From positions 7,938,701 through 8,002,700 of the forward strand of contig OZ038450.1 of assembly GCA_964036195.1 (NCBI GenBank): a stretch of DNA of 64,000 nt, written 5' to 3'. Below, one piece after another: positions 8,320-63,973 of this stretch. A program made the translations under genes and the position numbers. The notes below the pieces were generated by a model. That model did no database searches, was not told the origin of the DNA, and worked only from the letters and a program-made list of their open reading frames with translations. The stretch's first letter is position 1; each line of letters opens with the position of its first letter. This DNA comes from Sphaerolaimus hirsutus (taxonomy: Eukaryota > Nematoda > Chromadorea > Monhysterida > Sphaerolaimidae).

Positions 8320-11300
8320 ATGAACGACGTATCGTCCAACCAAGTGAATGCGAGCAACAACAACAACGTGCTGCTTGCTGGGCACCACCGCCCCGCAGTG
8401 GCAGCCTCGCAGGCCATCCGCCATGTCGCTCCTATAGCTCGGATCGTCCGCGACGCGCTCGCCCTGAGCGCCTACTTCGCGTGCGTGTGCGGCGCCGTTT
8501 TCGGTCCCCTGGCCACTTACGTGCCGCTGGTGCCAGTCCCAGACCTTGTGAAAGATCATGTTAAATGTCAAGTTCCCTGTAAAACGTAGAAAGTCGTGTA
8601 AAAGGGCATTCAAAATGTCAAAAGTGATGCAAAATTTCAAAAGTAATGTAAAATTCCCTGGAAAATGGCAAACGTATGTACATTTGCCATTTTGTAGGGC
8701 ATTTTACATGATTTTCGACACTTTGCATGACATTTTACATTTTACAGGCTCTATTACATTGCTTTCGACATTTTACAGAACCTTCAATTTGACATTTCCC
8801 AGGGCATTTTACAGGGTCTGGGACTGCCCCCAGGACGACCGGCTGCAGGCGGCCGGCCCCCTGCTCATGGCGCTGCTGCACGGCTGCGGCGCCGCGTCAT
8901 TCGTCTACGGGCCGACGGTGGCGCGCAAGTACACCTATAGGCGGGTGCTGGCGGCCGCGTGCGCGCCTTACGCCCTGCTGGCGCTATTGGCTGGCGCCCA
9001 CGGCACTGGGTTGGTGCTGCTGCTGCCGGTGGTCGCCGTGGGCTTGACGCAGGTGCGCCGGTGTGGATCGAGTGTGGCGCCAGCCAGCATGGCGCCGGGT
9101 TAAGTGTGGCGTCATCTCGAAACTATTTACCTAAAAATGCTTCAGATGACGGTTGAAATCACCGTTAAAAATATCAGGAAATTTCAAATGGTACCATATT
9201 TTGATGAATTAAGTCATGTTAAAAATTGTGCACCAAATTAACCAAAAGTGGGAGCAATGTGAGGTGAGAAAATTTTGAATGTCTGTTCGTTTATTCAGAT
9301 GGGATATGGTAGATTTAATTGTAAGCCGTGCCATATCACTAGACCAGGTATATGACACATTTTATATGATTAAGCACCTCTGATTGTAGCCGCATTTGCG
9401 TCAGTTCCAGCCGCAGCCGCACACTTGCAGGGTCCCCTGTGGTGCTCGTCTACCGCGTACATCATGAACCGGTCGGCCCAATTCGTCTACTTCACCGACC
9501 GGCCCACGAAGCGGCTGGTGCCGCGCCTGTTCGCCACCTTCCACGGACTCCGCGCGCTCGGCTCCGCCCTCGGCCATTTCGTCACCGCCGGCTCGTTTCT
9601 CGCGTTGAAATTGTCGGCGGCGAAACTAGAGGGGCGCGACAATCGCACAGTTGGAAAAGGGCCGATTGGCTCGAGCTCCAGCGCCGCGATGGTCGCCACC
9701 AGCACGAAGCACTTTCTCTACGAGGACGACCTGAACAAGTACACGCACTGCGGGTACGTGTCGCTTTGTCAACCAGTGCAGATTTGTTAAAAGTAACAAA
9801 AAAAATTTAAAGTATACGTAAACGTTAAGTATTTATTTTTCACTCACCCCTTGAGTACAGTAAACGTAATTTAATTTTTTTATTTTTACTCGTGAGTAAA
9901 CGTACTTATTCCCCTAGAAAAAGTATACGTGAGTATTTTTGAGAAATGTCACCCCAATTTTCGCTGAAATCCACTAATTTTCATAGCTTTCCTTTACCCC
10001 TGTTTTTAGCATATCCTCATCTTTTTTCCTTATATGCCTTCAAAAATCGAAAAAAGACTATCCGAAATACGTTTTCTGTACTTGAGTACTTTCAAAAAGT
10101 ATACGTAAAAGCGAGTACGGAATTTTTTCAAAGGAAACGTAAACGTATTTACTCTGTACTCGAGTATACGTATTTATCGAGTAAAAGTAAATACGTTTTA
10201 ATAACTATGAACCAGTGTGAGCACAATCAAAGCGCGTGCGCCAACCGCAGCCGCGGCTACTGCAACAGCGACAGGTTGAACAGTTTGCCGAGCGCGTCGT
10301 ACAGCGACAGCGTGCAGCGCAACGGCACCGGGCTGCTGGCGGGCTGGCTCAATCTGGACAGGAGCGTGCACCAGCCGTCCATCGTGCCCTTGTACGCGCT
10401 CAGCGTGTCGCTGTGCTTGGTCGCCGCGGGTGCGTTTTTGAGAGTGAGCACATGCGGCAATGTTGAAAAATAGATATTACGGCAAGTGCATTGGAAGATC
10501 GCCGTGCGACACGTGAAGCCGAAATCTGAGTTGACAGTAACCAGTTGACACACATGTGTCAACTAATGTGTGGGCCGCCAATGTCAACACCAGAAAATCA
10601 AATTGGGGGTTATCTGGCGGTAATCAACACGTGCGCTGTTTCGCGCATAAAAACAACGACGAAAAAACAAACCCCGCAGGCTTGCTATCTCTTTTCGTCG
10701 CAATGGGAAAGCTGAATGTGCACGTGGGCGCGGCTGCAAATCGGCCGGCCGGCGTCAGAAAGTCACTCAAGCAGTTTGCTAAACTTTTCAAGGTGGGTAC
10801 AAAAAAACTTCTGGAGTTTTGTTATTGTACGAACGCTATTTGAATTCGCGATATGGCGGATTTTAAGAGCGTCGGAGTCACAGTGGTTCCATGGTGTAGT
10901 GGTTATCACGTCTGTCTAACACACAGAAGGTCCCCGGTTCGAGCCCGGGTGGAGCCAGCACTGCTTTTTTGCACTTTTTCGAGGGAATTCTAAATTGAAG
11001 GCCCTCAGAGATGTTTTCTTATTTTCTCCAGAGAGATCAAATTATATTTTAATTAAGCGAAGAAAATATCCGATAAATTTTTTAGAGAGATTTAATTGTA
11101 GGTACCTATTTTATATTTAAGAGATTTTATCTTCTCAAAATCCCCAATTTTTTCATTATAACCACGTAACAACATCCCCATGCTTAGGTGGACAGCCCCT
11201 TCCTGATGCTGGCACCCACTTTGATGGCGCGCGGCTTCAGCGAAGCCTTCATCAGCTACGAAGTCATGAAGGTAAAATAAACACATGCTCACACCGCCTG

Positions 11301-12513
11301 AGACAAATCTTCACGCGCAACGCGCACAATCTCTGCCGCATCTCGCCGCGCAGTCCTACGTGCTGTGCATGTCGGGCCGGTGGACGGTGGGTTACGTGCT
11401 GACGGCGTCGTCGCTGGTGGCGGCCGGCCTGCGCTTCGGCCTGCCCACGGCCATCGATCAGATGAGCAGGGCCGCGTTCGTGTGCGCCGCAGCCGCCATA
11501 CAGACCGGTGCGACCGTTGGGTGGCGTGGTAGTGCACATGGTTGAAGTGTTGGTGAACCCTGTCGCAGGCGCCCTGTCCGTGCAGTGGATGTGGCCGCCG
11601 CGGCCGGACGACCTGCCCGTGGCGTACGTGATCGCGGGCGCCTCTCTCATGGCGGACACCATCGCGCTGGCACTATGCCACTGTAAGCATGATCCTGACT
11701 AGCATTGAAAAATTGGTGATTTGAAGAAATAAAATAAAATATATAATTTCGGAAATCCATGAAAAATATAATATTATTAATTCTTTCTAAAAAATGCAGA
11801 ATCTTAATAAAAAAATGAAATATTCCTTTAATTTTCTCAAAAATAAAATATGATAAAATCTCTGGAAAAACCCAGAGAAAATTAAATTTTTTTAATCCCT
11901 GATATTTTTAAAAACAAATCTCTCGCGATTTTTCAATGCTAATCATGACAAAAAAACCGCAAGAAAAAGGTGTCTCGCAACCGAACTACCCCACGTGCGC
12001 ACAGCGTTCATAATCTCGCACTACTGGGACGTGTGGGAGTACTCGATGGCGGCTATGTACGGCACCTACATGCTCGGCGTTGCCGCGGGCTACGCCACCT
12101 GCGCCATGGGCTGCACGCAGCCGAAGCTGCTCGCGCAGGTTGTTTGGAATTGGTTACATTACCAGATCATGTAAAATGTCAAGTCATGTAAAATGCCGTG
12201 GAAAATGAAAAACTCGATTGCCATTTTACAGGGCATTTTACACGACGTTTGACACATTGTATGATATTTGACATTTTACATGCTCTGGGAGTGCCCCCAA
12301 AGTGGACCAGTAGACGAGATGAGTGCTGCAATGAGCGCTTTGCATCGTGCTCAATTAAGAGTTTACATGCACTGAGAGTTCCCCCCCCCCCCACATGCTC
12401 AGGCGGTGTTCTGCACGGCCAGCCTGATCCCGCTGGCGCTGCTCGAATACCGGCTGCACATCGGCGCCATGGTCAAACCAGTGCGCACAATACGCATCAG
12501 GGGATTCATGTGA
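8320..12513 (+). CDS. UNC93-like multi-pass membrane protein, ten exons
   Basis: Member of the UNC93 branch of the major facilitator superfamily. Exons 8320-8529, 8834-9052, 9431-9757 (3' end inferred from phase), 10216-10429, 10680-10792, 11188-11271, 11354-11507, 11569-11682, 12005-12138, 12403-12513; about 559 residues. Family signs: GPLWCSSTAYI after a hydrophobic stretch (compare APLWSAQCTYL in UNC93A), WPPRPDDLPVAYVIAG followed by MADTIALALCH, and SHYWDVWEYS. About ten hydrophobic segments; Asn-rich N-terminus; N-x-S/T sites in exon 4. UNC93B1 chaperones Toll-like receptors; whether this paralogue does so cannot be told. Intron 1 is an introner, intron 5 holds a tRNA-Val, intron 9 a decayed introner. 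The next gene, TRMT6, converges with a 206-bp gap. Confidence 0.85.
8530..8833 (+). mobile_element. Introner: intron 1 of UNC93-like gene
   Basis: The 304-bp intron starts GTGCCAGTCCCAGACC at the donor (CTG^GT) and ends GGTCTGGGACTGCCCCCAG at the acceptor. The two ends are inverted repeats and the interior is made of TGTAAAATGTC-type words and their complements, so it can fold into a long hairpin. Flanking exons are in frame (VPL^DDR). Confidence 0.92.
9795..10200. repeat. GTATACGTA-rich repeat, UNC93-like intron 3
   Basis: Words such as AAGTATACGTAAACG and CGAGTATACGTATTTA recur on both sides of an AT-rich centre; similar sequence is at 45.36-45.45 kb. Probably another word-armed MITE but the ends are unclear. 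Confidence 0.55.
10885..10957 (+). tRNA. tRNA-Val (anticodon AAC)
   Basis: Complete cloverleaf of 73 nt: acceptor stem GGTTCCA pairs with TGGAGCC plus discriminator A; anticodon stem TCTGT/ACAGA encloses CTAACAC with AAC; T-arm CCCGG-TTCGAGC-CCGGG supplies the B box; the A box lies in TGGTGTAGTGG. No encoded CCA and no intron. It sits in sense orientation inside intron 5 of the UNC93-like gene. Confidence 0.96.
10965..10970 (+). terminator. Pol III terminator of tRNA-Val
   Basis: Run of six T eight bases after the tRNA 3' end, the usual Pol III stop signal. Confidence 0.75.
12164..12299 (+). mobile_element. Decayed introner inside UNC93-like intron 9
   Basis: CCAGATCATGTAAAATGTC on the left and CTCTGGGAGTGCCCCC on the right with the usual inverted interior, sense orientation. 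The splice sites used by this intron (12139 and 12402) lie outside the element, so the copy no longer defines the intron ends. Confidence 0.75.
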
Positions 12514-12719
12514 TACATTCTTTAAAGGTTTTATTTACTATGTAAATACGTTGTGTGTCGAATGTTTACTATGTAAATACGTCGTTTATTCATATTCAGC
12601 AATATCGCATATATAGGTACTTAATTTTTGGGTGATTATGTAAATATCAACCAAGAGCCACGTTGCGCACACCAAAAAACAACAACAAAACAAAACCATG
12701 TAAATAACACAAACAGCCC

Positions 12720-15700
12720 CTACAACAAAATGGCGCTCAACAAATATCCGCCCGACACGCACTGCTGCATCTGCGGATGCGTCCGTTCGTGCAGCACTTG
12801 CAGCCGGCGGCACATGTTCTCCGATAGCCGCACGTCGACAGCCATTTCTGGCTGGCCGCAGCGCAAGTGCCGCTCCAGCGAAAGTAGGGGCTGGGTTGTG
12901 GGCGGAGCGTGAAAAGACTTTACCTACCGGTGGAAGGTGTGAAAAAACCTACCGTATTTCCTCGAAATACCCCCCCCCCTGAAAATGGCCACTGTTAATT
13001 AATCAACTCCCCCTCGTATAACCCCCCTGAAAATTTTCACAATAATTAATAAACCGGGGGGGTTCGAGGAAATACGGTAATCAAATTAGGCACCTGTATG
13101 TAGGTGGAGTAGATCGCGATCGGGGCGGCTGGCTGCAGAAACACCTTCAGTCTGTCTAAAAGCGACACGAGATCGCAGTTGCGGCTAGCCACCACCAGCG
13201 AACGCATTTCGCGCGAGTTGAGTTCTGCAGCCGCGCGAGAAAGCGACTGACGCCGAACCTGCCAAGAGTTTTCCATTTCCGATGGATTTCGTGTAATAAA
13301 ATACCATTTTTACAAATAAAAGTGAACTCAAAAAGACGTCCAAAAACTGATTTTTTGTTTTAAAAATTTCAAATAGCAGTTCGAGTGAAAATAGTTACTG
13401 ATGGTCTGTAAATCTAAAACCAAAAATTTAGAAAAAAGTAAATGGAATTGGCCACAGTCCAAAAATCTTTCAAAATAGTTCAAAGATCGTTCAAAAAATC
13501 AAATGTTCCATAAGAGAAAGTTCACCTCGCGTTTCGCTCGTCTCTCAGCTATCGTCTCACTATCGCCCTCATCTGCCTCGCTGAAAAATTCAGGGGGCGG
13601 CTCCGGCGCATCAGTGCCACCGTCCTTACCGAGCCACGAGACGGGGTACGGCAGCCAGGTTCCCATTACCTGGTACAAAAAGATTATGGAAATGTTATTA
13701 ACTAGGTCTAATCCCAAACAATGTTATGTGTAAAGTTAAGTGTCAAATGTCATGTAGAATGTCATGCAAAGTGTCAATTGTGTTGATAAATGCAAAGTAG
13801 AGTGTCAATTGTCATGACAAATGTCAAGAAAAGTATCAATTGTCATGGCAAATGTCATATAGTGTCAAATGTACCTAATGCAATGTCACATTAATGCAAA
13901 GTGTCAAATATCATGCAGTGTCAATTGTGTATCCAAATCTTATGTTTTTGTATTCAAATCTTATTATTAAACATAATATTTGGATACAAATCGCATAAGA
14001 TCCGGATACAAAACACAAGATTTGAATACACGATTAACATTTGACATTTGACACTGCACATTTGTCACGACAATTGACACTTGACATCGCATTTGTCATG
14101 ACAATTGATACTTTACATCACATTTGTCATGACAATTGACACTTTTCTTGATGCGTCATGACAATTGACACTTTGCTTGATATTTGTCATGGAAATTGAC
14201 ACCTTGCATGACATTTTACAGCTATTTTACATTTTTCATGCCATTTAACACTTTTTTCAACCTTTACCCAGTCTGGGATTACCCCCAGCAGATTTATTAA
14301 CGAGAAGCACAACGCAAAAGGCAAACCGCGTCGCCAAAGCCCATGGCGTGAATGCAGGGCACCGCCTGCGGCTGCACGCCCTCGTGCAGTGCAACGCACA
14401 GGCCGCGGCCGCCCAGCTGCTGGAGCACCGCGGCCGTGGCCAGCCCGAGGCACTGGTCGAACACGAGCACGCGTTGGTGCGCGTGCACGTTGGCGCGCGC
14501 CAGCAGCTCGGCCACGTGGTCCACTCGCAGGTGTCCGATGCGGTCGGCGTCTTTGCGTTGGTAGGATTCCGCTACGCACCTGCGGGGTGGTGCGTGATAA
14601 GATAAATTGTTGTCGATCGGGTGTGGACTAGGGTGTCAAAAAATTTTTAACGGAAAACAAGAAGGATTTTTTTCAAATGGCGGAAAACGGAAACAAGCAA
14701 GGTAATAATTTGCCGTGCGGAAAACGGAAAGTTGACACCCCGTGTGAACAGTAATTGACCCGACACGTATTTCAAACAGCCAGCTGATCCAAATAAAATT
14801 GAAGCGTGGAGTGCATAAACCCCGATAAGATCATATGAATGGGCTGTCTAAAAATTTGTTGGGTAACATAATCTGATTTTGGTGGCAATAATAGAGGGCT
14901 TCCAACTGCATATTCATTATAAATTTCATTATCGCCTTCGCACACCTAACCTCAAAGTCGGTCTTGATAGCGTAATCGTTTGCGCATGTTTAGCACTCTT
15001 CTTTCTGATATACTTGTCCTGGGAATGGCCGGAGCGTTCGCCGAAAGCAGCGTTGCCCTTGACCAACTGCTGCACTATCGATTCGGTTGAATGCTCGCCA
15101 GATTCTTTCATCTCCTAAAATGGACAAGAAACTAAACTGAATCGATCAAAAATTTACACACAATGTCACTGACCTTCAATTTGGCTTCATCGATAGTCTG
15201 TCTAGAATTTTCCAAAGCAAAACCATTCTGGTTACTACCAGAGGCAGTCGCACAATCTGCATCCATGGCGGCACTTTGCGCTGCATCATGTTCAGTCGAT
15301 TCATCATCCACCGTTTCAGCGTGCACGAAAAGGACGTCTTCACGGGGAAACATCGAAAACTTCAAGCAGTAAAATGGGCCTAAACCCAGTGCTCATGTGG
15401 CGCTACCTGGTGCTCATGTAGCGCTACCTGGTGCTACCTGGTGCTCATGTAGCGCTATCCGGTGCTCATGTAGCGTTACTCAGTGCCCAGGGACATGGCC
15501 AGTTTTGAGCGGGGGGGGGGGGGTTGTAGGTGCCACGCCATGGGGTGATTGACATTGACGGCAATGTTTAAGAACGTTTATATACCTAATGTGTGATAAT
15601 GGACATGAAATTTATTTGTAGTAGGGGTACTTACACTACTGTCTACTGAAACGTAGATACAACAAGAGAGAGGTGTGGAAATGAAAGCACCGGTTTTACA

Positions 15701-16101
15701 AGAGCACCAACACAGTGCCGCCAATAACGCGGTCAACAATGCACCCACCGCCGACACATTTGAACGTGGTGCCATAGGGCTGACCAAACGCGCCATCGGG
15801 CTTGAACTGGAGCTTCTCGATGTTCACCCTCTCGCCGCTGGCGAGCCGACTGACGCGCACATGCGACCCGCCCACTTTCTGTATGACCGCGTAGCTGCCC
15901 GGCTGCATCAAGTTGCTGCTGCCCGCTGCGGGCGCCCTGGTGCCAGTCCCAGACCGTGTAAAATGCCCATGTCAAATTTCATATGCCCTTTCAACTGGGT
16001 TGCCATTTTGCAGGGCATTTTACGCGACTTTTGACACTTGACATGACATTTTACAGGGTCTGAGACTGGCACCTGGCGTAGTCAGCCTCAGTTCCGGACA
16101 T
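12720..16101 (-). CDS. TRMT6: TRMT6, non-catalytic subunit of tRNA m1A58 methyltransferase
   Basis: Partner of TRMT61A; together they methylate A58 of tRNA. Exons (coding order) 16101-16073, 15936-15749, 15379-15174, 15114-14951, 14579-14327 (3' end least sure), 13669-13526, 13258-13094, 12890-12720 join in phase to 439 residues (human 497). Conserved blocks: PGSYAVIQ, FGQPYGTTF, ESIVQQLVKGNAAF followed by SQDKYIRKK, LLARANVHAHQRVLVFD, SLVVASRNCDLVSLLD, and DVRLSENMCRRLQVL with a terminal SGGYLLSA. Intron 1, only ten codons into the gene, is a 136-bp introner. Intron 2 has a minisatellite, intron 5 an introner relative, intron 7 a small MITE. Confidence 0.9.
12950..13079. mobile_element. TACCGTA MITE, short (TRMT6 intron 7)
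   Basis: TACCGTATTTCCTCGAA at the left and its complement at the right, C-rich and G-rich inner arms; TA at both outer edges, as in TA-target elements. Confidence 0.8.
13705..14287 (-). mobile_element. Long introner relative in TRMT6 intron 5
   Basis: About 580 bp. Ends resemble the introner (TCTGGGATTACCCCC on the right of the plus strand, GGTCTAATCCC on the left). The interior is many copies of TGTCAATTGTCATGACA-like words plus a central palindrome of TATCCAAATCTTATG units. The orientation and ends do not match the splice sites, so it is an ordinary insertion within an intron. Confidence 0.6.
14628..14744. mobile_element. GGAAAAC-word element with TAGGGTGTCAA ends
   Basis: Begins TAGGGTGTCAA and ends TTGACACCCC; interior of CGGAAAACGGAAA words; flanks GTGTGGAC and GTGTGAAC agree at 7 of 8 positions. 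Confidence 0.65.
15391..15482. repeat. Minisatellite in TRMT6 intron 2
   Basis: About four imperfect tandem copies of a 21-base unit, GGTGCTCATGTAGCGCTACCT. Confidence 0.85.
15937..16072 (-). mobile_element. Introner: intron 1 of TRMT6
   Basis: The 136-bp intron has donor CAG^GTGCCAGTCTCAGACC and acceptor GGGACTGGCACCAG^G. Both ends are of the GGTGCC type, so the element is symmetric. It interrupts codon 10, between ADYA and APAA. Confidence 0.92.
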
Positions 16102-19500: not shown

Positions 19501-21356
19501 AGTGTACCAAAATTTATCGTTTACTTAGATTTTGTAGAAAATTTCCCAGCTTACCTTCAAAAGTACTTTGCCACTGCCATGCTGCTTTAAATGCGGACTA
19601 GCTGGAGGCACCACTCTGGCGCTAATGGTGTCGCAAAATTCGCTGCTTAGAACGTGGTCATTATGCCCTTCGCTGTATTTAACATGGTTTTTGATTTCTT
19701 ATGATTCCACGAAAGTAAGGCATACCTTGCCGCGTTTCCATTAGTGACCACATCCAATGCGGATGGCAGTCCACAATCGTCCAAGTGCATTGATGAAGGG
19801 GTATCCTGAAGCGAAAAATCTAGTAAAATATTATCAGTTTACGAACTATCGGCATGTTTGCACGCACATTAAAACCTGGTAGTGCCTCAGACACGCCAGT
19901 CGTTTCTTTCCGCGCAAACAAACCACCGTGGCAAAGTGTCAAATATGTCGCAAAATCCCTCCACACTTCGCCGTCTCGATGAAATTCCAAACGAACCTGA
20001 AAATCAACCAGTTATCAATTTAAAGCCCGGCTAAACAGACAATTAAGCACCATCCCAATTTATCACCAGAACTTTTCTGCCATCAAATATTTCACCGTCT
20101 GCTCTCAGCGACTCAACATTTTCAACACGCCATCGCAAATCCGGTTGGCCCAGTAATTCTCTAAATTTATCGCAAGCGTTCTGGCTCCAAGAAACACCAC
20201 TCGCGTCGGTAACCTGGTGAAATGAAGCGAAACATATGAAAAACGTTTTAATATAAAATGTCCACACCTGAAAACACTAACAGACCCCGCTCAACGAAAC
20301 CGACATGGACTGCGCCGGATAACAGCGCACCAAATCGGACATAGGCCTGGGGGGCAGTCTCAGACCCTGCAAAATGTCAAACGTAATGCACAGTGTCAAA
20401 AGTCGTGTAAAATGCCCTGCAAAATTGCAAACGCTGCAGGGCATTTGTCACTTTGCATGTCATTTGAACTTTTTACAGGGTCTGGGACTGGCACCTGAGT
20501 GCGGCCACTGGAACCCACTTTGCACAGCTCCAGCCGATGTCCACATAGCGCACCAAGGCCACAGCTTCCCCTTTTGGAGATGTGTCAGTTTTATCTACCA
20601 CACTTCGCTGCCAACTGTGATGACCATTAGCGAGCTGCACAAAGCCCACATCCCTCGCAGTTACTTGGAACGGGGCAATCGCGGTGCGCTCAGACCACCA
20701 GTCATCCGAGCACCTGTAAGCGCCAAAGCAAGTGGACAATCAGTGCCATTTTTGTGGTTCAAACGGGATTGAATTTCTTGGATCGGTATTTTTTCAGAGT
20801 TTTCGGGATCGGTATTTTTTTAAGATTTCGGCTCGGGATTTCGGACATTGTTCTGATGTTAAACGCTTTTCTCTGATTTGCAACAAAAATGGTCTAAAGT
20901 ACACCTGGATGCCATAAGAGTGGCATAAATTGAACACTGGAGGTTTCTGTTCACATTTCTAAGAGCAAAAAGCTATTTTCAACTTTTTTAAATCATTTCC
21001 ACCAATTCTTCCGGGATCGGGGCTTGAAAATTTTCGGGACCGGGATTGGAATTCGTCTTTTGACATTTCAGGATCGGGATGCCAAATCCCAAAATTTCCC
21101 GAATTCAGAATCGGGATCCCATTCGAACCACAACCCTATCAAGCAAGCACTCAAGCACCCAGTCGCACCTCGCCGCATCCGCACTCGAACGTGCAATGTC
21201 CGCATCCACACTGTCCTGCACCAACTGGGCGCAATGGTTGTGCAGCCTGAGTGAAAAGTCGTGCGGCGATACGGCGAACGTGGCGCTGCAGGGCGCCAGC
21301 GACAGGCGGCCGCAAAGGCGCAGCGGTTCTAGATTACGCCGCCGCAGCTTGGACGG
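16536..21356 (-). CDS. Multi-Tudor-domain protein (TDRD-like)
   Basis: Extended Tudor domains of this type bind methyl-arginine Piwi proteins in germline granules. Exons in coding order: 21356-21169, 20713-20495, 20346-20286, 20213-20067, about 19996-19876, about 19808-19723, about 19690-19555, 18119-17909, 17627-17523, 17452-17335 and a doubtful last exon 16736-16536. Tudor signatures: GHHSWQRSVVDKTD then ALVRYVDIG then LVRCYPAQSMSVSLSG; and DLDHFYSRL then GNWHRVRILWI then GCMVQFVDTGG. Phases agree for the first five and for exons 8-10; exons 6, 7 and the last do not fit and need RNA evidence. The 5' start was not found. The intron between 20495 and 20346 is an introner. No specific orthologue is claimed. 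Confidence 0.72.
16822..17110. mobile_element. TACCGTA MITE (Tudor gene region)
   Basis: Left end CTTATTTGCTTGAATAATCC, right end ATTATTCAAGCAAATACGG; inner C-rich/G-rich arms. Confidence 0.7.
18331..19462. mobile_element. Family B MITE split by an inserted word-armed MITE
   Basis: GTTATAGT occurs just before 18331 and just after 19462 as an 8-bp duplication of the outer element. Its left end CAGGGA is interrupted at 18337 and resumes at 19014 after a copied GTCAGGGA. Holds GCGCGCTCGCGCGC at 19323-19336. Confidence 0.82.
18339..19013 (+). mobile_element. hAT-like MITE, ATCGAT-armed, copy 2
   Basis: TAGGGTTGG...CCAACCCTA ends with 8-bp duplication GTCAGGGA on both sides. Arms are A/T runs joined by ATCGAT or GCGATT words; the body is related to copy 1. 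Confidence 0.85.
20347..20494 (-). mobile_element. Introner: intron 2 of the Tudor gene
   Basis: The 148-bp intron has donor CAG^GTGCCAGTCCCAGACC and acceptor GAGACTGCCCCCCAG^G, with an inverted hairpin interior. Splicing joins two Tudor-domain blocks in frame (ALR and PMSDLV). Confidence 0.9.
20756..21137 (+). mobile_element. GGGATC-armed element, copy 2 (Tudor intron 1)
   Basis: GGTTCAAACGGGATT left, GGGATCCCATTCGAACC right; the middle (GGATGCCATAAGAGTGGCAT) is homologous to the copy in Rheb intron 3. Confidence 0.75.
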
Positions 21357-21499
21357 CTGCAGGAGTGCATGATGCTATGAAAATATTCACCAAACTTGAA
21401 GATACGAAAAACTGTAGTGGCAGTGAGAAGACACAGCGCACACCGGTCGCCATTCAGGTGGCAAGCAATGCAGTTCACAACGGGCAGAATAGAATAATC

Positions 21500-21620: not shown

Positions 21621-21807
21621 GGTGCCAGTTCCAGACCCTGTAAAATGTCATGGAAAGTTTGAAATGTCATGCAAAGTGTGAATTAAAAGATAAGATTTTA
21701 TTGCTGAACTCCGCATCACAATAACACTTGGCACGACAAATTTGCATCACATTTCACATGATATTTGACACTCAACTTTACACTTTACAGGGCTCCAAAC
21801 TTGCACC
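21621..21807. mobile_element. Introner-type element upstream of the Tudor exons
   Basis: Plus strand begins GGTGCCAGTTCCAGACCC and ends GGGCTCCAAACTTGCACC; interior as in the introners. No exon is secure on both sides, so it may be an unrecognised 5' intron or an intergenic insertion. Confidence 0.65.
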
Positions 21808-21986: not shown

Positions 21987-22592
21987 AGGGTTGGCCGATG
22001 TTTTTTTTTAAACGTTTTTTTTTTTTTTAAACATGACGTCCGAAATGTTAAACATCGGCCGAAATTTTTAGTACTAAGCACTAGGTATTTTGCAAAATTT
22101 TTGCGCGCAAGCGGGCAATTTCACACACAAATTGACATTGGTGGTTGTTTTCATTGGTTTTGTTGCATTTTTAGTATCAAAACATCCATTTCTATGTGCT
22201 ACCATGGGTGAATAAGCCGACATATGTTGCTGTAATATATAATATTGAGGTAATGTGCTTCCATGTACCTCCACAGTGTGTTACTTCACTCCCAAAGTAA
22301 CAACCTCCTTTTATAGCCTTGTTTGATCACCATTCCGTGCCAAACTTTACCTGAAGTCACGAACATTTGACTATAAGGCGATATACGAACGATATGTCGA
22401 CGAAAAATGGATTTTTTTGACACAAATCACCACTTATAATGCTATCCCATGGCTCCACAGCCATTATATGGTCATATTTAACATCACAGAGTATTGCCAG
22501 TGTCTGATATACCTATATATGTTGACACTAGGTCATATCTGGGAGCTTTTAAAAAAACATCGAGTTAAAAAAAACGTTTTTTTTCCAACCCT
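21987..22592 (-). mobile_element. hAT-like MITE, ACGT-armed, copy 4
   Basis: Inverted relative to copy 1 and almost identical to it through the body; exact duplication GTCGTGAT on both sides. Confidence 0.85.
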
Positions 22593-27800: not shown

Positions 27801-30800
27801 TTGACATTTGGTGTCGATGTCAACTAGCGCGTGGGGGGGCAATGAGTTAGACCTGTTCAAAACCCCAACAGTCCCACTCACAGTCAACGCGAGCAAAAAC
27901 ACCATGACAACTGGATATTTCAAGTTGTGCAGCCACAGCAATTTAGTCCGCTGTCTCTCCAGCGCGATGCGCAGCCGGGTCAACTCGGCCAGCCTATCCG
28001 ACGCGCTCTTCTGCTTGTCGCCCGATAGCAAGTTGCTGTTGGCATCGTTTTTCGCCCCATTCAGAGAATAAGCGAGCTGAGGGCAGTCCCAGACCGTGTA
28101 AAGTGTACAGTAAAGTGTCAAATGTCATGTAAAATGTCAACCAAAACAAGAACGAAATTTTTTTTACTGAACTTTGCATGGCAATTTACACTTTAGTTTA
28201 CATTTGACATGACAAATCACTTTTTGCATGACATTTGACTCATTACTTTACACTTTACAGGGTTTGGGATTGGCACCAGGGGATAGCGGCGGAACTGCAG
28301 TGCACTGCCGCCGTGGCGGTTGTGCACGCAGTGTGCTGCGGGCTCTGTGGTTGAAAGAGGCAGAATTTGGTGGTAGGCTGCGCATGTGCTGGGCGCTTCG
28401 GCGCGCCGCTGCAGCGTCGATTCTTCGATCCGGGTTTTCAAGAGGTCCAATTCGAGCTCGTTGCGCCACTGCAAAGTTTCGGCGCGACTGCAAATTTTTA
28501 CACAAAATTTCAAAATAAAGATTTCGACTAACCCGTGGTTTGACCACGTAACCTCCGACGACGACAAAAATGCGCGCGAAGCCAATTGGTGTGCACGCTG
28601 CGTGGGATGCTTGTATCAGCACGAATGCTCCAATGTAAAACAAGCAGATTCAAAAACAAAAAAACTCACTTAGCAGCATGAAAACACCGAACAGTGACAC
28701 ACAGGAGTAAATGAACGGTAGTTGATAGTTCCAAATTCCTGTATAAATTGAAATTTGAAATGAAATTGCATCATGTAATTTTCAAATATATTTTTGAATG
28801 ATCAAAGGAATGAAATAAGAACGGGTTTTCAAACTAAGTTTTTACAGAAAATTTTACGAGGATTCTACAATGGTTTCCAAAAATTGTGTCTTGTGGGGTT
28901 CACATTAACAGTAAATAAATAAAATTCCCGTTAAGTAAAGTAATACATAAAGTAAACGATGCCTGACGTTTTTTAATTTAATTTTAAACAACAACTAATT
29001 AAAAATATATAAATTATAATTTTTGTGGGTGTTTTGTGATGAATTGCTTGAGATATGCGACTTCCCTTGAGATGAAAATTACCCTAGTTCGAGTGAGCAC
29101 CAAGAAACGGTCTGGCTGGTCAAAGAGGGTAGCGATAAAACGCTGACTAACGTTTGGCGGCTGTTTCATAGGGTCTGATGCCTGGATCCAACCAAATAGC
29201 CACCAGATGGGCCAAACAAAAGAAAACCGCCAGTGACAAGGCGGAAACAGAGAGCGCTTCGTAAACTCGAGGCAGAACTCCCTGAATATATTTACATAAA
29301 CATGTATGCACAAGCAAGAATAAAATGTGTATAAGCGAAAATATAATGTAAAAAACAGTAAATATGTAACCTTTTTCAAACCGCTAAAACCCTGGGACTC
29401 GATGAAGAAATAAGCGAATGGCAGCAGAAAGAACAGGCACAAATTGCTCAGCATGAATACATGGTTCCACAAACCTGAGTAATGAGTTTATGGTCAAACT
29501 GACTGTCAATAAACACCTCATTTCCTTATAAGTTACATACTTTGTATCAGTGAACTGGTCAGCCATTTGATGTACCAGCTGTTGGGGTAGTGCAAATGCA
29601 ATTCGTTTCCCACGATAGAAAACGGCAGCAACAGCACCGCGCCCAGCGACACCGCCAAAGAGAATGTCGATATCCATACTCTGCAGAGTGGTGGAATGTT
29701 GGAAAGATTTTAAGGGTAAGGTTTTGAAATGCCGTCTTTGGCATGGCACAGCATCGTGCACTGCAGGGGTATCTTGAATTTTGACCCTCCGAGTGGTTGG
29801 ATAGATAGCTGAGCAGCCTTCGGGATAGATAGATAGCTGGAAAAAATTGGGGGGAGGTTGGGGGGGTTGCGGTGGTTCGATATATAGGCTATTTCAGGGT
29901 GTAGAAGGAAAAAAATGGAGAAAAATCGCTAAAAGTAGGTGTAAATTAGCTCAAAATGGGTATACAAGAGCATATAGTACTAAAAAGAGCTGAAAATAGG
30001 TAAATATGAATAAAAACTACTATTTTGGAGGTGAACATCTATGAAAAGGTATGAAAAATAGCGATTTTGAGCGAAAATTGGGGTATAGTTTCTCAAAAAT
30101 CGCTCCAGATAGGTAGATAGCTGAGCGATTTGGGGGGGGGGGTTCAGGGGTAGTAGCCCAAAATTTTGCCTCTGCGATAGATAGATAGCTGAGCGGCCTC
30201 CGGGATAGATAGATGGGCGGTTTGGGGGGGGGGGGTAACCCATCCCCCATTCGAGACCCCTGGTGCACTGCAATTATATACATATATATCGGCCGCGAAG
30301 GCGTTTTTTCTTAAAGGCAAGCACGTAAAATGGCGGAAGTTGTAATAGTGCGGCCGCTTTAGCAAAAAACAACAGGCTAGGTTCTAGGGTTCAAACGATA
30401 TATCGTATTGAATATCGGATATCGACCATTTTTTCATATCGAATATCGATATCGAAAATTTTGAAAAAATGTCGAATATCGATATCGAAAATTTTGAAAA
30501 AATATCGAATATCGACCATTTTTTCTATATATCGAACATGTATTATGTCCCCAAATGTACTTTTCATTCTCATTTTGAGATGTTTATGGTTGATCTGATG
30601 TGCTTATAGTATTGTATTTGATGAGTAAAAGTACAGTATTTATAATGTCATTTTTTGGAGTGCTAAATTTGAAGCCAGAAAACGCTGATATGCTTTTTTT
30701 GCAACATGCCCTTAAGCAATTAGGTTATAAGGATGAACTGTAATATCTACCAATGGTTATTTGTCTGATACACTTTGATTCATCATGTTTTTCTTCTATT

Positions 30801-31475
30801 TTCTACCATTGAGTGATGTAAAGCTTGTTAAAATCACTTGTACCATTCAAATTTCAGTAAAGAGATGATTAAACATGTGTGCAACCACATGAAAATACAA
30901 TATGCCACTTGAAATATGCCTTGCTATACCAAAAGCATATCGCAATATCGAATATCGAAAATATCGAAATATCGAATATCGACCATTTTTCAATATCGAA
31001 TATCGATATCGAGGTTCCATATCGTATCTATATTGAATATCGAGTTTCAGAAAAAAATATCGAATATCGATATCGAAAATTTTGAAAAAACATCGAATAT
31101 CGATATCGAAAAGTCATATCGTTTGAACCCTACTAGGTTCACCAAAATACAAAAACTCGACACAAAAACCAACGATATTCTATACACCAAATAGTCCTCC
31201 TCATCGCCAGCGTAGAGGTCATCCTTGTCTGTTCTTGTCTTGAACGTTCGGATAACCACAAACGACACGCCGTAGAGACCAAGGAATATCAGCAGACAAA
31301 TCTGAGAAAACAAAGTGGAAAAAAACTGTTGAAAGGTAAAAAATTAGTGAAAATATTCATGATGGGAAAAGCACCAGTAGTCAAAAAATGTATCAAAAGT
31401 ACTCACAATGTACTCGCGCACAGCGCTGTGGAAAGCCGCCTCTAATTCGCTGGTTTCATCATCAAGAACGTCCAT
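24834..31475 (-). CDS. LMBR1/LIMR-family multi-pass membrane protein, thirteen exons
   Basis: Homologue of vertebrate LMBR1/LMBR1L and fly lilipod. Exons 31475-31407, 31301-31174, 29680-29541, 29474-29371, 29281-29152, 28738-28670, 28597-28533, 28468-28277, 28076-27882, 27470-27313, 26362-26205, 25631-25475, 25056-24834; all phases agree, 595 residues (human about 490). Conserved blocks: AVREYI, DKDDLYAGDEED, LAVSLGAVLLLPFS, FAYFFIESQGFSG, YSCVSLFGVFMLL, CTPIGFARI, VLSSALPV-like VLILSSALPVLTNTLG, FDLLGAYGKIDWLGNLYLV. The extra length is in the cytoplasmic loop after ESTLQRR and a polar tail. Intron 8 is a 200-bp introner; introns 2, 9, 10 and 11 hold other MITEs. It starts 288 bp from BUD23, divergently. 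Confidence 0.93.
25153..25448 (-). mobile_element. GGGATC-armed element, copy 3 (LMBR1-family intron 12)
   Basis: TAGGGTTCAAACAGGATCCC left, decayed TCAATCCCTA right; flanks TGCTTAAC and TGCTCAAA. The middle is the complement of the Rheb intron 3 copy. It ends only 27 bp from a coding exon. Confidence 0.75.
25809..26121. mobile_element. TACCGTA-type MITE (LMBR1-family intron 11)
   Basis: TACGGTATTTGCTCGAATAA left and a decayed complement right, with G-rich and C-rich arms. Confidence 0.65.
26400..27280. mobile_element. CAGGGGT-family MITE interrupted by a family B MITE
   Basis: ACCGCCCAGCTATCTATCC on the left and TCAAGGTACCCCTG on the right match the CTATCTATCC family. The copy is split at 26493/26939 and its left terminus is missing. 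Confidence 0.7.
26494..26938 (+). mobile_element. hAT-like MITE family B, copy 3
   Basis: CAAGGACGTAGCCAGG...CCTGGCTACGTCCCTG with exact 8-bp duplication CCTGACAT (26486-26493 and 26939-26946). GCGCGCAAGCGCGC at 26617-26630. Confidence 0.9.
27678..27838. mobile_element. CACACACGCTAGTTGACATC palindromic element, copy 2
   Basis: Near-perfect palindrome in LMBR1-family intron 9, closely matching 7289-7447; CAATG on both flanks. Confidence 0.8.
28077..28276 (-). mobile_element. Introner: intron 8 of the LMBR1-family gene
   Basis: The 200-bp intron has donor CTG^GTGCCAATCCCAAACC and acceptor GGGACTGCCCTCAG^C, with an interior of TGTAAAGTGTCAAATGTC and complements. Flanking codons are in phase (RRYPL^LAYSL). 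Confidence 0.92.
29764..30262. mobile_element. CAGGGGT hAT-like MITE (CTATCTATCC family), copy 2
   Basis: CAGGGGTATCTTG...GAGACCCCTG with exact duplication GTGCACTG on both sides; LMBR1-family intron 2. Confidence 0.88.
30386..31131 (+). mobile_element. ATATCG-armed element (LMBR1-family intron 2)
   Basis: TAGGGTTCAAACGATAT left and ATATCGTTTGAACCCTA right; both arms consist of AATATCGATATCGA words; exact 8-bp duplication CTAGGTTC. Confidence 0.9.
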
Positions 31476-31763: not shown

Positions 31764-34700
31764 ATGGCCAGCACTTCCCGACCGGAGCATTCTGGGCCGC
31801 CGGAACTTGTGAGTTGACATTCATGCGTTTTGATTTTAAACAGTTTCAACGTGCAATTAACGTTTGTTGTAAACTTCCTTTCAGTTTTACAACGAATCAG
31901 AAGCTGTGAAATACACGGCCAATTCGCACATTATCAAGGTGCAAGCTGAGTTGACTGAACGCGCGTTAGAGTTGCTTGTGTTGCCAGACGATACCCCGTG
32001 CTTTTTATTGGACATTGGGTAAGTGGCGTGGTGTTAATGAGTTTGCTATTTTTTTGGAACGCTGCCAACATAGTTTTGCATGGTTTACAAATTATGTATT
32101 TAGCGCAGACGCATATTGGACATTTTTAACACATTTCGTATTTCACAATAATTATGAAATACGAAATGTGTTATGGGCGACCAATATGCGTCTGCGCTGT
32201 CGCGACAATTAGTGTCAAAATTCACACAATCCGCGAATCACTGTCAACTGCGTGTGTAAAATGTTTCTAGGAAAAATAGATCTAGTGTTGGAGCATTTCT
32301 ACTAAACAAACAAAGAACAAGCGAAGTAGTGAGTCAAGAGACGTATTAAATGTCGCGTCGCAGATGCGGGTCGGGCCTGTCGGGCGAGGTTCTGTCCGAC
32401 AGCGGGCACCAATGGATCGGTTTGGACATATCCGCGCACATGCTGGCCGTGGCCGCCGACCGCGACGACGATTGCAGCGGCGACAATCTGCTGCTGCACG
32501 ACATGGGGCTGGTACCAGTCCCAGACCCTGCAAAGTGCCTTGTAAAATGTCAAATGTCATACAAAGTGTTAAAAGTAATGTAAAATCCCCTGCAAAATGG
32601 CAACCGAGTTACCATTTTGCAGGGCATTTTACATGACTTTTGACATTTTGCATGACATTTGACATTTTACAGGGCATTTTACAGGTTCTGGGACTGCCCC
32701 CTGGGCTTGCCGTTCAGGCCGGGCTGTTTTGATGGATCCATCAGCATATCGGCGTTGCAATGGCTCTGCCATGCAAACACCAATGAGCAGATGCCCAAAA
32801 AGAGACTTTATAGGTTCTTTAGCTCGCTGTATGCTGCGCTGGTGAGTTGCAGGTGCCACGATACTGTATTGGACTTTCGTGTATTTTTCGGCCATTACTT
32901 TGATGTTTTTGGCTACTTAAAATTTGTAGTGTGAGGGGTTGATAGATGGCGGATATTTGATAAAAGGGATGCAATCCAATTTTTTCACTCATTTTTCATT
33001 AATAGGTGAAGTTTAGTATCAAACTTGCGTTTTTAAATGGTTTAAAATACTAGGGCCAATTTTGTACATTTTACTCTCACTGTCACTATACAACTTTAGG
33101 ACCATTTGGAAAAATGTGAACTTAGCAAATCAAGCAGTAAAACTTATTTATCACCCCAATCTGATATATCGTCCGAACCCTGATTTACTTTCTACAATAA
33201 TATTATTTTTCTACATTTTTACGCTGTGGCTACTGTGATACTGATTTTCCATCTCTACAGAGTCGTGGCAGTCGTGCAGTTTTTCAGTTCTATCCCGAAA
33301 ATAACGCTCAGGTTTGGCGACTTGTTGTTTTTGTATTTTAATATTGTTTCCATCACATCCATAAATCCATTATCCAAAATACGAGTTCCATAATTCAAGC
33401 AATGACTGACCCACAAGGAAGGGGGGATGTTTCAAGGGGAGTGTCCAAGGGGGGCTTATTCAAGAATCTACTGTAAATATGTATAATCTGCAAGTTGGTT
33501 TATTGGTGGAGTCGTGCAGGTGCAGCTGATAACCGAACAAGCTACGCGGGCTGGTTTCACAGGCGGGCTGGTCGTCGACTATCCCAACAGCACACGCGCC
33601 AAGAAGTTTGTCTCACCGGGACATTTGTATTTACCTGGATATTTTTTGAATGTTATGATTTTTGGTTTGCACGGGGGAGCATAATTGGCTCATGCTTAAT
33701 TATTGAAGCAAAGTAATGTCATCAACCACCATATACCACATTTTATATCAACCGTCATATATATTTAAGTAGAAATATTTTGAATGAAAACAAACATGCA
33801 TTGCAATTTGCCATACGCCATCCCAAATAGTTATAAATACCACGAATCCTCGAATAAGACCCTCCCTCAAATAACTCCCCCCGTTTACAAGTCGATGAAA
33901 ACTTTCCCCTCTGGATGAAAAGGATACGATACAAAAACACAATATTAGCCACAATATTACAACAATATTAGCCTACCACAGCGACAGCAGAGACATGATG
34001 TGTATGCAGTGTATACACATCTTTTCGTTGTTGGACAGCTAAATACCTGAATTACATTAGTTGACAGACTGCATCCATACATTAAATAAAGTCTGTTTTC
34101 TGAGGAAATAATAAGTCCCCCCTCGAATAACTCCCCCTTGAATAACTCCCCCCCTAAAATATCTGACGAAAAAATAACTCCCCTGGGGTCTTATTCGAGG
34201 ATTTAGGGTATCTGCGAAACTATATGGTGCATTTCCTGATTTAACACCAAACCTTGAGGCATCATTTTTCTCTCATTTATCCGGGTTATTTTCAAATCAA
34301 ATCTACCTACTTCTGTATGTAAACACCTTCCCGGTCACGTCCGGCACCCATTTTTTGATTTTACTTCTCACATCCTATACCCAGTTCTAGGGTGCCGCAG
34401 AGGCTGAAACTTGGGGGAGATATTGGCGCAACCCCCCTCTACCTCGCATGAATTAGGGGGGTCGCCGCGACCCCCCTAATTCATGCGAGGTAGAGGGTGG
34501 TTGCGCCAATATCTCCCCCAAGTTTCAGCTTCTGGCGCGCCCTAGAACTGGAGATAGGGTGTCACTCGTACGGTCGAAAATAGGTTGCCGGACGTGACCG
34601 GGAAGGTGTTTATTACCTCGCAATTATTGTAAGTAGGGATGGAAAAAAGCGCTTTTTTTTAACGACCCCGCTTTTTTTTTTTAAAAGCGCTTTTTTTTAA

Positions 34701-37240: not shown

Positions 37241-37434
37241 GGTACCAGTCCGGAGCCCTGTTAGGTAGGTGTAAAGTCAAGTGTCAAATTCCATACAGAT
37301 TTGTAAATTGTCAGGCACAGTGCCAATTATCATGCAAAGTTCAGTAATAAAACTTTTTTCTTTTGTTTTGATTGACATTTTACATGACAATTGACACTTG
37401 ACATAACACTTCACAGGGCTCGGGACTGCCCCCT
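37241..37434 (+). mobile_element. Intergenic introner-type element
   Basis: GGTACCAGTCCGGAGCCC on the left and GGGCTCGGGACTGCCCCC on the right, between the convergent BUD23 and PTB genes. No coding sequence on either side. Confidence 0.8.
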
Positions 37435-46500: not shown

Positions 46501-47910
46501 CGACGTAGCTCTGGGGGCAGTCCCAGACCCTGTAAAATGCCCTGTCAAATGTTAAATGTCACGCAAAGTGTCAAAAGTCATGGAAAATGCCCTGCAAAAT
46601 GGCAACCGAGTTTGCATGACATTTTACATTTTACAGGGCATTTTGCAGGGTCTGGGATTGGCACCTGGCCGGCTGCGCTTTGTGCGTGCCGCTTCCCACT
46701 GGGTGATCTTCCAGCCCGTCGATCTGCTCGTCGCGCCGCTTGTCCTCCTGCTGCTGCTCGTCCGGCTGCGACAATGAGTGAGTTTGTGGAGGTAAAAAAG
46801 TAGTGAATGTTTTGCGCGCGCGGCGGCTTATTTAGGCGGCAAAAGATGAGTCAGTGATTTGTTGCGCTGAAGCAAGTAAAGTTATAAATACTGGTAAAGG
46901 CACATACTTTTATTTCAAAGTATTGGATTTTGTTGGGGTGTATTGAAAACGTTTTATCCTATTATCCTGGGAAATCCTCCGTAACACAGTCATGGTATAT
47001 TAGAAATCGGTTGTGACTGATTAAGCATACCGCAAATCCTCGAATAAGACCCTCTTGAATAAGTCCCCCTTGAATAACCCCCTGCTCAAAATCTATGAGC
47101 AAAAAATAACTACCCTGGGGTTTTATTCGAGGATTTGGGTAGTTGTAAGTCATAAATGTTCACAGCGCTTCACTGCAAATCACAGATGCATTCTTTGCCG
47201 CGCGTTCTTTGCTACAGCGCATGGATCGACGTGATCGTCCGTAAACTAAATAGAGGAGCGGCGATATTGGAGTAATAAACGACAACGTGACCCGCATGAT
47301 ATTCGCGGGCGCTGCTCAACTCTCCCTTGCCGCGCGCGTACTTGCGCCGCACTTCTTACTGACTGCAGATAGGTGGAATGCGCACTCGCACCACTATACT
47401 TGCAGTCTACCCTGTTCGCTCGACGCAGTCGAAGGTTACGCAGACAGTTTTCACTGATGGTCGACCTATATGGTTCTCGCGTGAAGAGAAGACTACCTAG
47501 GTGTGCCTACTGGTGCAGCGCCGCCGCGGAGGCCGGCACTTTGATCGCGGATGATAAGGCACGGCGCGCCCGCCGCCCTGGCGCGCATGCGGGCCAAATC
47601 ACACAGGTAGACGGGTACGCGCGCGGCACAAAAATGTGCGGTCGATGGCAGCCGCAAAAACGACGACAAAAATGCGCCGGCCGGCCGGTAAGCCATCCGT
47701 AAAGAGCCAGGTGACACTCGCCTGTAGGAACCTGCCGTAGGCGGTGTCCATGCGACGCTGGTTCTGCCGCTGCATGGCGCCCGCCCACAGGAGCGAGGTG
47801 TCGCGCGGCGGGGGGCCGGCGCGCCGCCGGCTGCCCGTCATGCTGCCGCCGTCGGCCGCGTCCGGCGGCGCCGTGTAGAAGTCGGCCGGCACGTCGGTCA
47901 GCCCGATCAT
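37560..47910 (-). CDS. PTB/PID-domain adaptor-like protein with Met-Gly-Pro-rich region
   Basis: Exons 47910-47722, 46765-46665, 46510-46435, 41830-41558, 41123-40759, 40328-40084, 39293-39018, 38760-38467, 38394-38123, 37952-37560 are in consistent phase and give 827 residues. After an acidic/Gln-rich N-terminus comes a phosphotyrosine-binding fold: CRVLYLGSAVPTISKDGLQG, GIDSWLSVWSNGLLLEYVEG, FFPIKSLHYCAAV, RYVNVSGYAIEGG, VLECHAFICTNERAANALV. Then a basic QGKDKAARARSREKSA-type helix, a long low-complexity region of repeated MMGP units, and an acidic C-terminus. Intron 1 uses a GC donor, intron 2 is an introner, intron 3 is 4.6 kb. Likely a cytoplasmic signalling adaptor (inference from the fold); I could not name the orthologue. 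Confidence 0.85.
39513..39953. mobile_element. TACCGTA-type MITE (PTB gene intron 6)
   Basis: ACCGTATATCCTCGAATAAG left, CTTATTCAAGGAGATACGGT right, with many GTTATTCAAGGGG words between. Confidence 0.75.
41170..41530. mobile_element. TACCGTA-type MITE (PTB gene intron 4)
   Basis: TACCGTGTATCATCGA left, TTTCCAGGAAATACGGTA right, G-rich arm with TATTTCGAGGGG. Confidence 0.7.
41831..46434. other. 4.6-kb intron 3 of the PTB gene
   Basis: A TACCGTA-type remnant around 43.47-44.01 kb and a GTAAAAGTAAATACG repeat fragment near 45.36-45.45 kb. CpG-rich patches at 44.3-44.6 and 45.6-46.0 kb have open frames but no recognisable protein. Confidence 0.45.
46511..46664 (-). mobile_element. Introner: intron 2 of the PTB gene
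   Basis: The 154-bp intron has donor CAG^GTGCCAATCCCAGACC and acceptor GGGACTGCCCCCAG^A. Exons join in phase (AQPA^RATSR). Confidence 0.9.
47028..47147. mobile_element. TACCGTA-type MITE, short (PTB gene intron 1)
   Basis: ACCGCAAATCCTCGAATAAG left, TTATTCGAGGATTTGGG right. Confidence 0.7.
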
Positions 47911-50059: not shown

Positions 50060-50477
50060 CACATTTGTAAAACATCATGCAAAGTGTCAATTGTCATGAC
50101 AAATGTAGTAAAGAGTCAATTGGCATCTCAAATGTCAAGCAAAGTATAATTGTCATGACAAATGTCGTGCAGAGTGTAAATTGTGTATCTGAATCTTATG
50201 TTTTGGTATCCAAACCTTATGTTTTGGTATCCAAACCTTATGTTTTGGTATTCAAATCTTATGTTTTTGTATCCAAATGTTCACAAAAGATTTGGTTACA
50301 AAAACAAGATTTGGACACAAAAGATAAGATTTGGATACAATTTGCTTTACAGTTTCAACTTTAATTTATATTTGTCATGACAAATGGACATTTAACTTAA
50401 CATTTTCATGAAAATTGACACTTTCCATTCCATTTCATATGAAATTTTGACACTTTACTTGGCTTGGGACTGCCCCA
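50060..50477 (+). mobile_element. Long introner relative nested in a MITE
   Basis: Right end GGCTTGGGACTGCCCC; interior of AATTGTCATGACAAATGTC-like words and a palindromic core of TATCCAAACCTTATG units, matching the relative in TRMT6 intron 5. The left end is degraded. Confidence 0.6.
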
Positions 50478-57192: not shown

Positions 57193-58972
<1,780 letters not shown>

Positions 58973-60784: not shown

Positions 60785-60792
60785 ATATAGCT

Positions 60793-62960: not shown

Positions 62961-63067
62961 GACATCAGTTACGTAGACATTTTGTCAACTTCAAATTTTT
63001 TTCTGCACTTCATGCGTTCAGTAAAGATACATTTCAGGTAATAATTGTACCATTTGATCATGCACAG

Positions 63068-63973
63068 GCAGCGGCACGAGATATTTCAACTACAAGGGAT
63101 TTTATTCTGTGATTCTGTTCATTTCTGCGAGTGCTGATTTGCGCGTGCAGTATGTGGACGTTGGGGCGCCTGGCAGTCAGTCCGATTCGGGTGTGCTGCT
63201 CACGTCGGATTTCGGACAAGACCTGATGTTAGTTTCTGCAACTGTCTAGCTTCAGTTGACATTTGAAAACGTACTTTACTTAAATGTTATTGCAGAAATG
63301 GCAGAATGGTCATGCCGAAAAAGTGCCTACTACCTGGCACCGACCCAGCCGATAACACAAACTACATCCCAAGCTGTTTCATCGGTGACCAGGTGTCAGT
63401 CCCACGCCATGTAAAGTGTAAAGTAAAGTATGAAATGTTAAGTGAAATGGAAAATCAAACAAATCAATCAAATAAAAGGAAAAGGTCAATATTTTTCTGT
63501 ATTTTGCATAAGAATTTACAGTTTCGTTTACATTCAACTTGACATTTTACATTTTACTTTACACTTTACATGGCTTGGGACTGCCCCCCATGCATTCGCA
63601 ATGTCAAAATGGTGTCTCGTGCCATATGTGATTCAAAACAACCCGGCAAACAGGCACTTTAACACCAGGTGACTTATAACAATTACCTGTAATTTATGAA
63701 TAAATTAATATTATATTGTTTTACAGACTTTCGCGCGCTAGGAGAACGGTCGAGTGCACTTTTGGAATGCTCGCGGCTCGCTGGAGGATTCTGCTTGGCA
63801 CCATCACCATGGAGCCATCCCGCATCAGCCGAATGGTGATGGCGCTGTGCTCGTTGCATAACTGGCTGCAAGTGACGCGCGGAGCGACGATTGCAGACCA
63901 CTTCAACGCGCGGGGGGAGGAAATCGAACCGCTGCACGGCGTACCTGATCATCCAAGACTTCGCGACCGAACT
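63068..63973 (+). CDS. PIF/Harbinger (HARBI1-like) DDE nuclease gene, partial
   Basis: Exons 63068-63227, 63296-63392, 63592-63668 and 63727 to about 63973 are in phase. Translation contains TRYFNYKGFYSVILF, QYVDVGAPGSQSDSGVL, LLPGTDPADNTNYIPSCF then GDQ-AFAMSKWCLVPY, and RLSRARRTVECTFGMLAARW, the conserved order of DDE_4 nucleases of the PIF/Harbinger superfamily. The second catalytic Asp (SDSG) and the Glu (RTVE) are present; the first-Asp exon lies upstream and was not recognised. The intron between GDQ and AFAM is an introner ending in AT. Split into small introns, so either an old domesticated gene or a transposase invaded by introners. The 3' end may run past the window. Confidence 0.8.
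63393..63591 (+). mobile_element. Introner in the Harbinger-like gene with non-canonical 3' end
   Basis: Donor CAG^GTGTCAGTCCCACGCC; right end GGCTTGGGACTGCCCCCC followed by ATGCATTC. Restoring the conserved GD-x-AF frame needs a GT...AT intron (63393-63591), or GG...CA one base earlier. Confidence 0.88.

Follow-up and report, generated by a model that had tools for sequence, protein, structure and literature searches.

Seven introns in seven genes of a 64,000-nucleotide stretch of the Sphaerolaimus hirsutus genome (the window) were described, in a preliminary description made from the letters alone, as consisting wholly of one repeat, and were taken to be introners, that is, DNA transposons that create introns. 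The locus raises the questions of whether these elements act as introns and of what provides their splice sites. The answer that we consider very probable is that the family is a NuwaI-like MITE with CWG target site duplications (TSDs), which inserts at CCWGG, often in exons, and then acts as an intron. Contrary to the first description, it is the duplicated target and not the element that supplies the acceptor, and many coding insertions offer TG, not AG.

The repeat family and its target site

Sequence checks and searches for the element ends bore out that the seven stretches share one family of repeats, and showed that it has terminal inverted repeats (TIRs) and 3-bp CWG duplications at CCWGG. 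Each reported intron comprises the element and one copy of the TSD, in the sense of the gene (Table 1). The TIRs are built on CAGTCCCAGACC...GGTCTGGGACTG, and the layout of the seven stretches is [CWG][GTGC CAGTCCCAGACC ... GGTCTGGGACTG CCCC][CWG]. Four of the seven match the donor motif first proposed, GT(G/A)YCAGTCCC, exactly, whereas TRMT6, LMBR1 and 'PTB' carry one mismatch to it. The right end stops at the acceptor, as claimed, in the five copies providing AG; this part of the description fails for BUD23 (CCCC followed by CTG) and for the transposase copy (CCCCC followed by CAT), which have no AG, and these two of the seven window copies were counted against our best explanation. The name 'PTB' did not stand, since the gene is at best weakly PTB/PID-like (PID_2, E 0.057, on another exon); a human PTBP1 probe gave no convincing match in the window.

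Table 1. Members of the repeat family located in the window.
Feature	Positions	Strand	Remarks
UNC93-like gene intron	8530..8833	+	Element at 8530-8830 with one TSD copy, CAG; CTG on the left flank; GT-AG
TRMT6 intron	15937..16072	-	Both ends GTGC; CAG/CAG TSD (gene sense); GT-AG
Tudor-domain intron	20347..20494	-	TSD CAG; one extra C at right end; GT-AG
LMBR1-family gene intron	28077..28276	-	CTG in front, CAG behind; GT-AG
BUD23 intron	32512..32703	+	TSD CTG/CTG; GT-TG if cut exactly
Intron in gene first named 'PTB'	46511..46664	-	TSD CAG/CAG; GT-AG; weak gene identity
Element in PIF/Harbinger-like transposase gene	63393..63591	+	CAG before, CAT after (GT-AT)
Decayed copy	about 12153..12297	+	Inside UNC93 intron (by eye)
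Long diverged copy	13704..14285	+	Between TRMT6 exons
Copy	21622..21806	+	Not placed in exon
Copy	37243..37432	+	CAG/CTG; not placed in exon
Long diverged copy	about 50066..50476	+	Left end ambiguous
Partial consensus match	57305..57403	+	70%

The window also holds at least six other members of the family that do not in themselves constitute introns. The two long diverged copies are longer and more diverged, with extra inner repeats, and are perhaps ancestors of the 189-nt form described below. Other features of the window include a 508-nt inverted repeat (positions 86-593 and 22050-22557, 99% complementary, 21 kb apart), which is another young mobile element, and tandem ATCGATATCGAAAATTTTGAAAA-type repeats at 30401-31136, also present beside element copies L037 and L079. 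The PIF/Harbinger-like transposase gene (63200-64000), which reaches the window edge, has an ordinary GT-AG intron too.

The whole-assembly search that had been proposed was made with 12-base ends in 348,482,957 bases (762 contigs, the window being on C1). It returned 5,824 exact matches (2,935 and 2,889), compared to 18 (7 and 11) for the reversed pattern used as a control. Because each element has two ends, the copy number is at least about 2,900. With up to one mismatch, the two end 12-mers gave 12 matches in the window and 0 to 1 in each of ten mononucleotide shuffles of it. The window is richer than average, with seven exact ends for 1.07 predicted from the genome mean, and seven copies in 64 kb overstates the density of the family. 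The proposal that the family is very active was not borne out either: median divergence from the consensus is 7.1% in CTG/CTG and CAG/CAG copies alike (20 and 16 elements). Among the contigs searched, C762 (14,754 bp; loci L069 and L070) is mitochondrial, with nad1 (minus) beside cox1, then cox3, cytb, cox2 and nad3 (by eye). Its COX1 shares 64-67% identity with named insects among the 120 matches listed and 89% with one further entry, and the partial gene order differs from that of two kinorhynchs (PMC5068742).

From 58 elements measuring 160-200 nt, a consensus of 189 nt was built that matches its reverse complement at 182 positions; apart from the loop, the symmetry is broken only at bases 2 and 4 of each end (GTGC versus GGGG). 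The BUD23 stretch folds as a hairpin (-130 kcal/mol, z -16), and both fold and consensus have the ends of the element joined by a stable hairpin.

Target sites were classified in sampled loci. The first 100 genome-wide end matches listed formed 85 clusters (hand count), 71 of which were taken (L001-L068); two clusters were omitted as a tandem duplicate, and some sampled stretches hold more than one element. Two sets of 20 loci, selected by left CTG or right CAG, were added (L071-L110), so that the combined set does not give unbiased class sizes. A script paired 79 elements initially and 119 in all; dropping copies without a GT end or too close to the locus edge left 113 oriented rows, which include recent duplicate pairs (e.g. 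L017/L018, L062/L064, L081/L082 and L100/L101). The 72 oriented rows of the first sample comprised 19 CTG/CTG, 19 CAG/CAG, 4 CTG/CAG, 3 CAG/CTG and 27 mixed pairs, two symmetric elements with GT at both ends contributing one row to each matched class. With 4 CTG/CAG versus 3 CAG/CTG rows, this sample showed no excess of CTG-to-CAG change. In the 38 matched rows, CWG was preceded by C in 76% and followed by G in 79%, which identifies CCWGG as the insertion target. One sampled stretch, L030:1105-1835, holds two elements around 160 nt of a SET/MYND-like gene (named by eye); beyond the CTG/CTG element, the reading did not go on as the same protein.

Exact removal of the elements restores coding sequence

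As described initially, the exons around the seven window introns are joined in frame, without a stop in any of the seven, in gene models based on homology and on inspection by eye. The sampled loci were scored with a codon model trained on the window exons, some of which (in BUD23 and UNC93) also serve as test rows, and a junction was called coding if its score exceeded 3. Upon removal of the element and one TSD copy, the three main classes (CAG/CAG, CTG/CTG and CTG/CAG) together gave 32 coding junctions among 72 sites. Removing one, two or three extra bases gave 6, 7 and 28 of 72, respectively. In the 'other' rows, 4 of 30 scored as coding. In an earlier run, scores above 6 were obtained for 3/19 CAG/CAG and 6/19 CTG/CTG elements and for 3/161 and 2/154 random CWG sites. 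Frame coherence of the 120-nt flanks, a weak test for which about one sixth is expected, was found in 7/19 CAG and 8/19 CTG copies; for other right ends the values were 5/9 if ending in AG and 4/25 for the rest.

Homology extends across the junctions. Gapless alignments span the join in OSCP1 (Pfam, 3.2e-19), Srx (Pfam, 1.8e-6), BCKDHA (3.8e-13), ALKBH7 (1.2e-20), Na/K-ATPase (9e-23), an amino-acid permease (4.2e-6) and BUD23, the latter against the human protein. The join is also crossed, with small length differences, in SLC23 (8.7e-14), a cyclin (5.2e-7) and STAG (3.1e-11). E1 dehydrogenase homology (Pfam) crosses it as well, and an LRR match extends across by only three residues. TRIM/NHL homology is strong on either side (5.6e-27), but there are two surplus residues close to the join, which in some of the alignments fall at the join itself. 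In total, 47 joined peptides were compared to Pfam (7 from the window and 40 picked by eye, including 3 antisense); 17 matched at the cut-offs used, one probably by chance, and 30 had no match, among them the 3 antisense peptides.

For the window introns, database homology spans the join in BUD23 and in the transposase (DDE_Tnp_4, 9.1e-16). Full-length relatives of BUD23 were also found, nematode proteins ranking high with molluscs and tardigrades close behind; like the Srx and Srv matches at other loci, this ranking suggests a nematode host. The Tudor match (Pfam, 0.0053, below the cut-off) appears only on the joined exons and spans the join. LMBR1 has tblastn matches on either side and none across, the Gcd10p match of TRMT6 begins past the join, and the UNC93 and 'PTB' exons matched no Pfam family. 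A single search for an empty site (Srx, L081) returned only two copies, 99-100% alike around the join and both carrying the element.

Removal of the element with one TSD copy restores the original coding sequence exactly. Insertion of the repeat into pre-existing introns, with a chance match to exon ends, would suit the window copies at about 12153 and 13704, which lie in longer introns or between exons. At coding sites, by contrast, exon sequence abuts the TSD on both sides, an exact cut is needed to keep the frame, and the gapless alignments across joins contradict this explanation, which we regard as extremely unlikely. Many similar introns are alike up to both splice boundaries, with TSDs, TIRs and exon insertions whose removal restores the frame, as in introners. 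That initial interpretation is supported by the TSDs and TIRs, the copy number, the frame after exact removal, the homology across junctions and the Pfam matches on the GT-first strand reported below. On this support, which is good though indirect, the elements appear to act as introns.

The GT end and the duplicated target as probable splice sites

Because the element is a palindrome, its orientation amounts to which end has GT, and 105 of the 113 oriented rows have GT at one end only. Codon scores were higher in sense than in antisense for CAG/CAG (24:6), CTG/CTG (19:9, a weak bias taken alone, p 0.087) and CTG/CAG copies (9:4), that is, 52:19 for the three main classes pooled (p 1.1e-4). 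There was no sense bias in the 'other' (12:16) and CAG/CTG (1:2) rows. Antisense scores above 3 were found in 8/29 CTG/CTG versus 4/30 CAG/CAG copies. As a less selective control, Pfam (E to 0.001) was searched with flank reading frames from the 68 elements beyond the window that were matched or CTG/CAG, using for each strand the best frame that stayed open over 20 codons on either side. Nine families, Srv among them, were matched in 116 sense pieces versus none in 98 antisense pieces. The bias to the GT-first strand favours splicing that starts at the GT end. An internal GT would be needed in two reverse cases, L076 and L083:485 (by eye, no Pfam match).

The W of the target determines what stands at the other end: a CAG target leads the TSD to supply AG, and a CTG target TG. 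The family is a two-factor natural experiment, in which orientation sets GT or GG at the exon and the W of CCWGG sets AG or TG. Coding genes prefer GT to GG but accept AG and TG about equally: the coding share is alike in CTG/CTG (12/29) and CAG/CAG copies (13/30; Fisher p 1). This equality is what would be expected if the elements were precisely excised from somatic DNA, leaving one CWG and needing no splicing. However, such excision should make the GT end irrelevant, yet Pfam matches are confined to the GT-first strand of a palindrome whose strands differ only at the outer bases and in the loop. The codon-score bias, clear in CAG/CAG though weak in CTG/CTG copies, and the retention of the elements in the assembly also speak against DNA excision, which we judge very unlikely.

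Returning to splicing, the exact product from a CTG target with a GT donor requires a cut after CTG and no other. CTG/CTG insertions are found in BUD23, BCKDHA, ALKBH7, SLC23, TRIM/NHL and two Srx copies. Since CTG/CTG copies are coding as often as CAG/CAG copies, and in conserved genes, they imply GT-TG introns, and CTG copies may be spliced after TG. Working TG ends would be a step beyond elements acting as introns. We give even chances to the reading that the transposon has generated GT-TG introns in large numbers and that the spliceosome, perhaps aided by the hairpin, needs no 3' AG.

It is possible, in our estimation, that the CAG copies are the only true introns and that CTG/CTG copies are recent, harmful, polymorphic or users of cryptic sites. 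Frame-keeping AG alternatives exist in five genes besides BCKDHA, with residue changes: an AG 3 nt downstream in ALKBH7 costs one residue (the simplest alternative), another 15 nt downstream in TRIM/NHL costs five, and internal GT-AG pairs add or replace residues in BUD23, SLC23 and Srx. In BCKDHA, by contrast, the sole frame-keeping GT-AG alternative in the scanned range contains a stop. Moreover, CTG/CTG copies show no enrichment of in-frame internal site pairs (9/29, versus 9/30 for CAG/CAG copies), and the two classes have equal coding shares and equal divergence. AG is slightly commoner at right ends genome-wide (CAG 989, CTG 732; 57.5% of 1,721) than at left ends (CAG 850, CTG 722; 54.1% of 1,572; p 0.053), which speaks for the restriction to CAG copies. 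AG is somewhat favoured at the acceptor, against full indifference, yet far from a requirement.

In 78 of 105 rows, the last AG of the element, which falls mostly in TTTTACAG and is paired in the stem, precedes the element end by 16 nt and the TSD end by 19. In the mechanism that we propose, a putative enzyme would insert the element at the palindrome CCWGG, where the TSD is observed. The GTGC end would give a 5' splice site at its first base and the duplicated CWG the 3' end of the intron. U1 would read the terminal GT, as the strand bias suggests, and the cut after CWG would fall at the foot of the hairpin. By setting both exon ends at the foot of one stem, the hairpin would be a likely aid; it may pair the internal TTTTACAG and leave CWG free. 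In step one, U2AF could dock on TTTTACAG, the TSD being chosen in step two. We infer transcription, splicing and the transposase of the family from the genome sequence.

Known introners and unusual 3' splice sites

Introners of the DNA-transposon type were reportedly studied by Huff et al. in 2016, and for C. elegans, splicing in the absence of a 3' AG has reportedly been described (Aroian et al. in 1993). With a palindromic introner and a symmetric target, the requirements for donor and acceptor can be separated by counting insertions. Splicing of the TG copies would mean that the AG rule is relaxed genome-wide in an animal, with a bearing on intron gain and 3' splice site choice, and such GT-TG introns would be missed by ordinary gene annotation.

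Introners are rare in animals, a large survey reporting in the relevant passages two animal groups, including copepods, and describing families with their own 5' site and a 3' site co-opted from the TSD (Gozashti et al., 2022; PMC9860276). The present family resembles the DNA-transposon introners of these passages in its TIRs, its TSDs and its insertion without change in mRNA length. It differs from them in its 3-bp CWG TSD at CCWGG, its near-perfect palindrome with one GT end and the TG 3' end of many coding copies; the passages name rare GC and GA 5' sites and do not mention TG 3' sites (PMC9860276). The CWG duplication is shared with the NuwaI group, a part of the PHIS (PIF/Harbinger) superfamily found mainly in animals (PMC4482050). 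That group is defined via transposase genes, whereas the present family is likened to it by its CWG TSD, and the passages on NuwaI do not mention the intron role proposed here (PMC4482050). A paper on nematode introns exists (PMC9169325), and among the papers listed none dealt with nematode introners, judging by title or abstract start.

Animal introns also break the GT/AG rule on a large scale in the tunicate Fritillaria borealis, in which, according to the passages concerned, 95% of introns depart from GT/AG, with divergent copies of U2AF implicated and weak splice sites on introners discussed as a possible cause (PMC13326754). In contrast, the remaining four introns modelled in BUD23 are ordinary GT-AG introns. 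Human TG 3' sites occur, as far as the corresponding passages state, only with an AG within 28 nt, which is thought to act in step one (PMC2374985). The AG of TTTTACAG lies inside this range. The human TG is never the sole 3' site (PMC2374985), whereas here the frame requires TG alone.

Removal of the hairpin without the spliceosome, as proposed for the nonconventional introns of euglenids, deserves comparison with splicing. The present hairpin closes beside both exon ends, and the euglenid introns, as presented in the relevant passages, likewise have a hairpin joining their ends and direct repeats, with MITEs discussed as their source (PMC4770533). They lack, however, a GT-type 5' end pairing with U1 (PMC4770533). 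In the present family the GT end is strongly tied to coding hosts, the dependence being weak by codon score in CTG/CTG copies, and this strand bias points to recognition by U1 and makes removal without the spliceosome most unlikely.
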